Source: Thermanaeromonas toyohensis ToBE (lineage in GTDB: Bacteria > Bacillota > DSM-521 > Neomoorellales > Neomoorellaceae). From it: a stretch of DNA of 64,000 nucleotides. This document shows, one piece after another, positions 11,446 to 21,453 of this stretch. Where the stretch lies: contig NZ_LT838272.1 of the NCBI RefSeq assembly GCF_900176005.1, forward strand, positions 1-64,000, in the 5' to 3' direction. The position numbers and the translations under genes were made by a program. The notes under the pieces were generated by a model. The model ran no database searches. It was not told the origin of the DNA and saw only the letters and a list, made by a program, of their open reading frames with translations. Every line of letters starts with the position of its first letter. The first letter of the stretch is position 1.

Positions 11446-11546
11446 GGGGGTGGATCGGGCCTGGTGGCCTGCCTGGACTTCAAATCCAGCTGGCGCGCGG
11501 GGGAGACCCCGGGCGCGGTGGGTTCGATTCCCACACACTCCCGCCA
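11446..11546 (+). tRNA. selC: tRNA-Sec (anticodon TCA)
   Basis: Selenocysteine tRNA of about 101 nt, CCA encoded. The anticodon arm CTGGACTTCAAATCCAG carries TCA, as in bacterial selC. The extra arm is very long (GCGCGCGGGGGAGACCCCGG region), the T arm is GTGGG-TTCGATT-CCCAC and the discriminator is G. The acceptor aligns as an 8-bp stem GGGGGTGG/ACACTCCC with a G.U at pair 4 and an apparent G.A at pair 8. It reads UGA as selenocysteine with SelA and SelB, neither of which is in the window. No selenoprotein gene was recognised here. Confidence 0.93.
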
Positions 11547-15009: not shown

Positions 15010-15131
15010 AAGAGCTGCTTCAGGGTAAACCTGTCGAAAGGCAGGGGCACAAAGCCATGGGTCTAAGGCTTTTCCCTTTAAGGGGTTAGCTCCTCTAAAG
15101 GGAGGCTATGATCGCCAGGCTGCCAGCTCTT
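15010..15131 (+). ncRNA. Cyclic di-GMP-I (GEMM) riboswitch aptamer
   Basis: Closing helix AAGAGCTG (15010-15017) with CAGCTCTT (15124-15131), 8 bp. Inside are the class-defining CAGGGTAAACC, a hairpin CCTGTC-GAAA-GGCAGG with GAAA loop, the CACAAAGCCATGGGTCTAAGG receptor strand and ATGATCGCCAGG. This matches the GEMM-I layout: GNRA hairpin docking into a tetraloop receptor with the ligand at the three-way junction. It lies 88 bases before an HD-GYP gene, a typical c-di-GMP effector. Discrimination between c-di-GMP and cGAMP was not resolved. Confidence 0.88.
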
Positions 15132-15218: not shown

Positions 15219-15854
15219 GTGGACGCCTACGCCGTTAGCGCATTGCTTGAGGATTTGTTTAGACATTCGCGCCTCACTTACTACCATTGCCTGCATGTAG
15301 CCGTTACTGCTCGCCAGGTAGCCATGGAGCTTGGATTAGAGTACCAAGAAGTGGAGAAGATTTTTTTAGGCGCTCTATTTCACGATATCGGCAAACTCAA
15401 AATTCCCCGGGCTATATTACATAAGAAGGGTCAGCTTACCCCTGCGGAGTGGGAAAAGATGTATAAACACCCGGAGGAAGGGTGCCACCTTCTACCGGAT
15501 ACCTTTCCTTGGCAGCCTATTAAGGAAATAATCCTTTACCACCATGAAAGATGGGATGGTAGGGGTTATTATGGGCTATCCCGCACGAAGATACCCCTAG
15601 GAGCTAGGATAATAGCCCTGGCTGATGCCTTTGACGCCATGACCTCACGGCGGCCTTACCAAGAAGCCCGCGGCTTAAGCGCAGCCCTGCGGGAGCTAGA
15701 GGAATGTAGTGGTAGCCAATTTGATCCTCAAGTTGTAGAGGCCTTTTTTTCCCTTACTGCAGGGTTCCTTAAGGGCCGGCAGGTCTTAAGACCGGAAAAA
15801 ATTAATCTGATCTTAAACGTAACAACACGGAAACTTAACAGTAATGAGTTATGA
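15219..15854 (+). CDS. HD-GYP domain protein under riboswitch control
   Basis: A 211-residue single-domain HD-GYP protein, probably a cyclic dinucleotide phosphodiesterase or effector. Visible are HCLHVAVTAR, GALFHDIGKLKIP (HD at 55-56), HPEEG, LYHHERWDGRGYYGL (about 107-120) and ADAFDAMTSRRPYQ. The naming motif GYP-x-GL is altered to GYY-GL, losing the proline and one residue; other metal ligands are kept. GTG start at 15219. It is preceded by a c-di-GMP-I aptamer and followed by its own terminator at 15929. Confidence 0.87.
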   Translation: MDAYAVSALLEDLFRHSRLTYYHCLHVAVTARQVAMELGLEYQEVEKIFLGALFHDIGKLKIPRAILHKKGQLTPAEWEKMYKHPEEGCHLLPDTFPWQPIKEIILYHHERWDGRGYYGLSRTKIPLGARIIALADAFDAMTSRRPYQEARGLSAALRELEECSGSQFDPQVVEAFFSLTAGFLKGRQVLRPEKINLILNVTTRKLNSNEL

Positions 15855-15964: not shown

Positions 15965-16412
15965 AAAACAAAAGCAAAGAAGGCCGCGATCTTGCGGCCT
16001 TCCTTTTAAAGAGCCCATAAGGACCTTAACACCGGCTAACACACATCCCTACAGAGCCCATACCAGCCTTTCGGCGGGTATAGACCCTTACGGAACCTAT
16101 GCTAACCTTAGCTCGACAATTTAAAGTACCTGAGAAGCCGAACAAGGTCTCTCGATCTTGTTCGACCTCTAGCCTTTAAAGGTTGCCTGCGGCACCTTAA
16201 ATTGTCTTAGCTCGACCAAGGATCATCCTTGCCGACCTGCCCCTAATCCTTCGGACTAGGGGCAAGCCTTGACGGACTTATCCTTGATCTTCCCGCCAGC
16301 CGGTACCGAGCCTTTTTGACCCGGTACCGACCTTTGGCCGGAGATGGCCGAGCCCTTGCGGACCCGGCCATCTCCTGGGCTCGGCCCTTATGGACCCTGA
16401 CGCTATTATTAT
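15965..16412 (-). ncRNA. Candidate large structured non-coding RNA, class not recognised
   Basis: No credible coding frame, but dense inverted repeats. Read on the minus strand from about 16412: hairpin 16396-16383; 16-bp hairpin 16375-16340 with GCAA loop; 15-bp hairpin 16332-16298 with A5 loop; 16279-16264; 11-12 bp hairpin 16264-16238; bulged helix 16237-16209; 16-bp long-range helix 16206-16191 with 16130-16115 enclosing a 14-bp hairpin 16170-16133; alternative hairpins in 16100-16054 with GUAA and GAAA loops; 16025-16012; terminator. About twenty G.U pairs on this strand would be A.C on the other, so the minus strand is the RNA. Promoter-like and terminator sequences match. It does not resemble tmRNA, RNase P, 6S or SRP RNA. 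Exact ends are estimates. Confidence 0.72.
15966..16001 (-). terminator. Terminator of the minus-strand structured RNA
   Basis: Stem AAGGCCGC (16001-15994, minus strand) pairs with GCGGCCTT (15987-15980), loop of 6, followed on the minus strand by CTTTGCTTTTGTTTT. The T-tract is interrupted, so moderate strength is expected. On the + strand only TTCCTTTT follows the same stem. Confidence 0.65.
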
Positions 16413-21169: not shown

Positions 21170-21453
21170 GAAAAGGTTAAAAGGCAAGGAACGGGCAAAG
21201 TAGACGCCCCCGCCTCCTCCAGAGAGGGGTCGCCGTGGGCTGGAAGCGGCCTTAGGTAGGCAGGCGTTGAAGTGCGCCCGGGAGCTGGGTGGCCGAAAGG
21301 TTAGAAGCTTAGTAGGCTACCACGGGTTCGCCCCGTTAGAGGCGAAGGCGCTTTTCTTGCGCCAAAAGAGGGGGAAGGCAGATTTTAGGTTGCCTTCCAA
21401 GCAGGGTGGGACCGCGGAGGCCCTCCGCCCCTGAGGGGTGGAGGGCCTTATTT
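21170..21453 (+). ncRNA. T-box riboswitch, probable cysteine specificity
   Basis: The conserved antiterminator element GCAGGGTGGGACCGCGG is at 21401-21417. A strong terminator hairpin (GGCCCTCCGCCCC / GGGGTGGAGGGCC, 21419-21447, then TTATTT) overlaps it. In the upstream stem, GAAGTGCGCCC (about 21270-21280) contains TGC (21273-21275), a Cys codon in a typical specifier context. The genes below are cysE and cysS. Uncharged tRNA-Cys should stabilise the antiterminator and turn the operon on. Confidence 0.9.

Follow-up and report, generated by a model that had tools for sequence, protein, structure and literature searches.

The window considered here, a 64,000-nt stretch of DNA from Thermanaeromonas toyohensis ToBE, holds between two ordinary genes a gap (15965-16412) in which all open reading frames are short, and the question it raises is what such a gap contains and what its product might be for. 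An earlier note, made from the sequence letters, had proposed that the minus strand of this interval encodes a large structured RNA and had left its function unknown. That observation is confirmed, and it was understated: the gap is the gene for a large non-coding RNA of a new family. This gene is free-standing, occupies 16402-15965 on the minus strand, is present as a single copy in its own genome and specifies a non-coding RNA of about 400 nt (392 nt counted).

Identity of the locus

For the minus strand of 15965-16412, the minimum free energy of folding is -270.3 kcal/mol, compared with a mean of -155.5 (sd 6.6) for dinucleotide shuffles (z = -17.5), and 0 of 100 shuffles fold as low. Since the plus strand of the same interval gives a weaker fold (z = -7.25), the strand had been called correctly. 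In the window, no Rfam 15 family was found to match the RNA, either at the gathering threshold or at a relaxed E-value. At the gathering threshold, 20 homologous loci likewise gave no match to the RNA itself, the sole hit being a neighbouring c-di-GMP riboswitch. The open-access literature yielded no earlier description, although one could exist in a subscription paper or a preprint, and two surveys of structured RNAs leave Moorella and Pelotomaculum unmentioned. The proposal of an undescribed large structured RNA is thus supported by the Rfam scans, as it is by the compensatory changes described below.

Several other elements were recorded in the window. A c-di-GMP-I riboswitch (15014-15127, plus strand, 67.7 bits) lies directly upstream of an HD-GYP gene (15219-15854, plus strand) that probably encodes a c-di-GMP phosphodiesterase, an arrangement that suggests feedback control, and a sister genome also has a c-di-GMP-I riboswitch (L005, 581-681). 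In addition, a tRNA-Sec (11446-11542, plus strand, 71.4 bits) makes it likely that the organism uses selenocysteine, and a T-box leader is located at 21178-21435 (plus strand, 108.8 bits).

Homologues and compensatory change

By BLASTN, 31 of 61 genomes were found to hold relatives, which are nearly full length and 67-85% identical in the organism's own family and in several others. When 398 genomes sampled from the phylum were searched with R1, a covariance model built on the 3' domain, 163 of them matched, and a second model (R2), built from 53 diverse members, matched 172, which amounts to over 40% of the phylum sample and to 120 of its 267 genera. The carriers include Moorella thermoacetica, M. 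mulderi, M. stamsii and Carboxydocella thermautotrophica, as well as metagenome-assembled genomes of Pelotomaculum, Desulforudis and Desulfotomaculaceae, and divergent members retain the same helix plan. Some genomes hold several copies. In Pelotomaculum sp. PtaB.Bin104, two copies lie about 2 kb apart (L069, at 219 and 2206) and others are found elsewhere (L068, L076), and in G094 two copies are about 2.6 kb apart (L101). An origin from phages, plasmids or viruses was ruled out, as no match to the RNA was found in collections of such sequences.

When 40 full-length RNAs were aligned, 96.9% of the cells in the named structure could pair, compared with 80.0% after shuffling, and changes on both sides were seen at 111 of 143 pairs. 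The alignment contains 978 double-change cells against 250 ± 17 in shuffled controls, a number that 0 of 500 shuffles reach, and the signal collapses once the partners are slid by 1-3 columns. With compensatory change exceeding both the shuffled and the slid controls, the RNA is a new structured RNA family.

A fold built from one repeated helix

The 40 full-length relatives share one fold (alignment A3), which consists of a closing helix and five arms and comprises nine helices, nearly all of exactly 16 bp. The RNA can accordingly be modelled as a six-way-junction scaffold built of nine near-identical 16-bp rods. On the minus strand, the closing helix P1 (16 bp) pairs 16398-16383 with 16025-16010, with 99.1% of cells paired and double changes at 10 of 16 pairs. 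Two arms are single hairpins, namely P2 (16375-16340, 16 bp, double changes at 13 of 16 pairs) and P3 (16332-16298, 15-16 bp, 12 of 15 pairs), and the remaining three contain two helices each. The P4 arm (16289-16214) is formed by P4a (16289-16273 with 16229-16214, 14 of 16) and P4b (16269-16254 with 16248-16233, 15-16 bp, 14 of 16); the P5 arm (16206-16115) by P5a (16206-16191 with 16130-16115, 12 of 16) and P5b (16169-16154 with 16149-16134, GAGA-type loop, 13 of 16), separated by a small inserted hairpin that varies; and the P6 arm (16107-16034) by P6a (16107-16092 with 16049-16034, 13 of 16) and P6b (16088-16073 with 16068-16053, GAAA loop, 10 of 16). In almost every homologue, this 3' domain (P6) has a length of exactly 111 nt.

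Much of the pairing drawn in the earlier note recurs in this homologue fold. Its 16-bp and 15-bp hairpins are P2 and P3, its long-range helix is P5a and its hairpin at 16170-16133 is P5b. A 12-bp hairpin at 16264-16238 is also real, but it is only the tip of the longer P4b (16269-16233). The GAAA- and GUAA-capped stems placed at 16100-16054 were mis-parsed, since the homologues give P6a and P6b (16088-16053) there, and P1 and P4a were missed.

The six junction linkers resemble one another, and many invariant unpaired columns of the alignment fall within them. The linker between P1 and P2 reads GAGCCCA (16382-16376), and related purine-rich linkers are found at 16339-16333, 16297-16290, 16213-16207, 16114-16108 and 16033-16026, all on the minus strand; the consensus structure also predicts, tentatively, that linkers touch through 2 bp (GC/GC).

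The preference for one helix length was also evident in minimum-free-energy folds of 62 members, where helix lengths cluster sharply at 16 bp, with 289 helices of precisely this length and about 470 of 15-17 bp; composition shuffles of the same members show no peak. Furthermore, each helix carries conserved wobbles at bp 3, at bp 5 or 12, and at bp 14. In P1, P4b, P5b and P6b, bp 3 and bp 14 are G.U and bp 5 is U.G. In P2, P3, P4a, P5a and P6a, bp 3 is U.G, bp 12 is G.U and bp 14 holds a wobble that is mostly U.G, and G.U in P5a; this second pattern is the same brick read from the opposite end. In most of the nine helices the wobbles are typically kept in about 80-100% of sequences, with looser sites at P2 bp 3, P4a bp 14 and P5a bp 12, and most non-wobble positions swap Watson-Crick pairs freely. 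The G.U pairs had earlier been taken as a sign of structure and strand, and their retention at fixed helix positions in homologues bears this out. Since the 11 bp from bp 3 to bp 14 amount to roughly one turn of an A-form helix, the marks would lie on one face of the rod. Not every brick is indispensable, since two members from the Moorella family have shortened arms: P6b is reduced in L030, and the loss in L028 is larger. We know of no natural RNA in which one 16-bp rod is reused nine times with its wobbles in register, and the modular plan resembles that of designed RNA nanostructures.

Promoter and terminator

Alignment with the sequences upstream of 62 homologues shows that the promoter at 16436-16406 on the minus strand is by its sequence of the forespore (SigG/SigF-like) type. 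Its -35 element, AAATATT (16436-16430), is followed by N15 and by the motif GG(T)AATAATA, with a -10 at about 16415-16408; homologues conserve both elements, and transcription would start at about 16402-16398. The consensus of the 62 non-redundant regions is GNATATT-N15-CATAATA/CATACTA, and a GG usually stands immediately before the -10. Scored against dinucleotide shuffles with B. subtilis sigma consensus strings, these regions gave z values of 17.4 for SigG, 11.3 for SigF, 7.0 for SigE, 1.2 for SigH, 0.5 for SigK and 0.2 for SigA. The consensus sequences for SigE and SigG partly coincide, and their textbook -35/-10 spacings bracket the GNATA-N17 of this promoter. SigE was the reading considered first, and its score falls below that of SigG. 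The SigF and SigG promoters of C. difficile resemble each other; an upstream G marks the former and a downstream A the latter, and the spoVT promoter bears both marks (PMC3789822). The promoter of the RNA likewise has an upstream GG and a downstream A.

Genes for small acid-soluble spore proteins (SASP) provided a further comparison. When 30 SASP genes of relatives were scanned with a matrix derived from the RNA promoters alone, GCATAAA-N15-CATACTA or near variants emerged 54-68 nt before most of them (mean z 11.1), and the SASP gene of the organism's own genome (L140) is among those with a recovered promoter. The GNATA-N17 spacing is the same in the SASP promoters of these organisms, and the RNA has the GNATA-N17-CATAMTA architecture of the sspA-like SASP genes of the Moorella lineage. 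These genes are protein-coding, unlike the RNA, and the likeness is one of regulation only. A search of the organism's own genome with a fixed promoter pattern proved too stringent, missing even the RNA itself.

At the other end of the gene, the intrinsic terminator that had been noted earlier is present as a hairpin at 16003-15979 (GGAAGGCCGCAAGATCGCGGCCTTC) followed by a T-rich tract reaching to 15965 (TTTGCTTTTGTTTT), both on the minus strand.

Association with sporulation

Of the 398 genomes, 336 have the sporulation gene spoIVA (TIGR02836). Using R1, the RNA was found in 158 of these 336 and in five of the 62 genomes that lack spoIVA (Fisher p = 9e-10, relatedness ignored), and three of these five are only 61-80% complete. 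When the comparison is confined to high-quality genomes, the counts are 145 of 307 and 2 of 49 (p = 4e-10, relatedness ignored). All nine genomes added by R2 have spoIVA, which is thereby present in 167 of the 172 carriers, and the RNA occurs almost only in spore-formers. In about half of the spoIVA-positive genomes no copy was detected, and with so many sporulators in this position sporulation as such does not depend on the RNA. The SigG/SigF-type promoter and the spoIVA-linked distribution tie the RNA to endospore formation, so that its function is no longer wholly without a context, and they strongly suggest that it is expressed in the forespore.

The flanking genes, recognised by sequence alone, vary among genomes: PHP and histidine kinase genes adjoin the RNA in Moorella, and glycerate kinase, ThiC/Upp, SpoVR, IleS and others elsewhere. 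This variation indicates a free-standing gene, and on the same ground cis-regulation was ruled out, though spoIVA adjoins in several lineages. In these lineages (G064, G311, G372, L048 and Desulforudis L071), the RNA is convergent to spoIVA and lies within about 150 bp of it.

Relation to known RNAs

A forespore-expressed RNA has precedents as regulatory logic, and the novelty lies in the class of RNA and in its architecture of repeated bricks. The Bacillus forespore sRNAs Bvs196/S547 and CsfG resemble it in their predicted SigF/SigG control, independent gene, terminator, conserved structure and restriction to spore-formers (PMC9147052). Bvs196 has 294 nt, a consensus fold of -82 kcal/mol and a fixed hinT-ecsA locus in Bacillus (PMC9147052), whereas the present RNA has about 400 nt, about -270 kcal/mol, nine 16-bp bricks and no fixed locus, and is set apart by that description. 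OLE, ROOL and GOLLD are likewise large, highly structured, multi-arm RNAs with functions that are unknown or poorly known, but the present RNA differs from them in size, helix plan, and taxonomic and regulatory setting; their models gave no match in the Rfam 15 scan, provided that release 15 includes them. CsfG and Bvs196 are thus the nearest functional relatives, and OLE, ROOL and GOLLD the nearest structural analogues, with membership in neither group supported.

Proposed role and alternative explanations

On balance, we favour, as probably correct, the reading that the RNA is a trans-acting scaffold of about 400 nt with nine docking faces, made in the forespore under SigG and probably also SigF. 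Transcribed there by SigG, and probably by SigF too, it would act in trans, as suggested by a stand-alone, terminator-bounded gene of forespore type that has no fixed neighbours. Its nine 16-bp helices would form a rigid scaffold around a six-way junction, in which the same wobble pattern in each helix, with marks about one A-form turn apart, would create nine copies of one docking face. Either a forespore protein or the packing of helices against one another, self-assembly included, may make use of such faces. The RNA could thereby have a structural or a sequestering role within the spore as it develops; it would presumably bind a partner and persist in spores, and the scaffold role is one that the architecture suggests.

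A forespore regulatory sRNA that base-pairs with mRNAs, like Bvs196 of Bacillus velezensis, would account equally for the predicted control, independent transcription, own terminator and conserved structure that the two RNAs have in common (PMC9147052). We regard this as unlikely, since nearly all consensus nucleotides fall inside helices, the P2 and P3 hairpin loops vary in length and sequence, and the conserved unpaired bases lie in the junction linkers rather than in an exposed seed. Moreover, a regular brick length and fixed wobbles play no part in antisense pairing; one helix module repeated with fixed wobbles suggests instead a recognition event that recurs, whether through a protein or through the packing of RNA helices.

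To a similarly small extent we credit an RNA-only homo-oligomer, a dimer or cage like those of OLE, ROOL and GOLLD, in which the wobbles and GNRA-type loops would form the intermolecular contacts. Large ornate bacterial RNAs are known to form such complexes (PMC12286853), and the GAAA and GAGA loops on P6b and P5b, the uniform 16-bp rods and the repeated faces would suit one. However, no receptor or kissing-loop partner was found in this RNA, its P2 and P3 loops are not conserved, and its length of about 400 nt is below that of ROOL (659 nt) and GOLLD (often above 800 nt).

Improbable, in our view, is a dsRNA-like ligand that titrates or nucleates the forespore alpha/beta SASP through an A-form duplex with marked minor-groove wobbles. 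SASP-bound DNA is A-like, the RNA and the SASP genes share a promoter class, and SASP are present in 31 of 31 genomes tested, but many SASP-bearing genomes have no RNA and the open-access literature yields no report of SASP-RNA binding. A vegetative housekeeping RNA transcribed from a sigma-A promoter is very improbable: its -10 ATAATA would be compatible and the TTGCTT-17-TATGCT proposed as promoter in the earlier note does match at 16448-16420, but that match is not retained among homologues, SigA scores no better than shuffles over the 62 promoters, and the carriers are restricted to sporulators. A CsrA-sequestering RNA was rejected, as CsrB-like RNAs have many GGA motifs in hairpin loops, whereas only six GGA occur in these 392 nt and the bases after AGG vary.

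Extending the favoured reading of a forespore-made scaffold, we tentatively suggest, as possible rather than probable, that the RNA is a structural part of the endospore in many spore formers of the phylum, a nine-module scaffold that may bind or pack many copies of a partner, or of itself, in the spore core. To our knowledge, few non-coding RNAs have a known role in endospore biology. If true, this reading would add to it a broadly conserved RNA class (172 of 398 genomes, 120 of 267 genera), and as Moorella and its relatives are culturable and spore-forming, its experimental study looks feasible.
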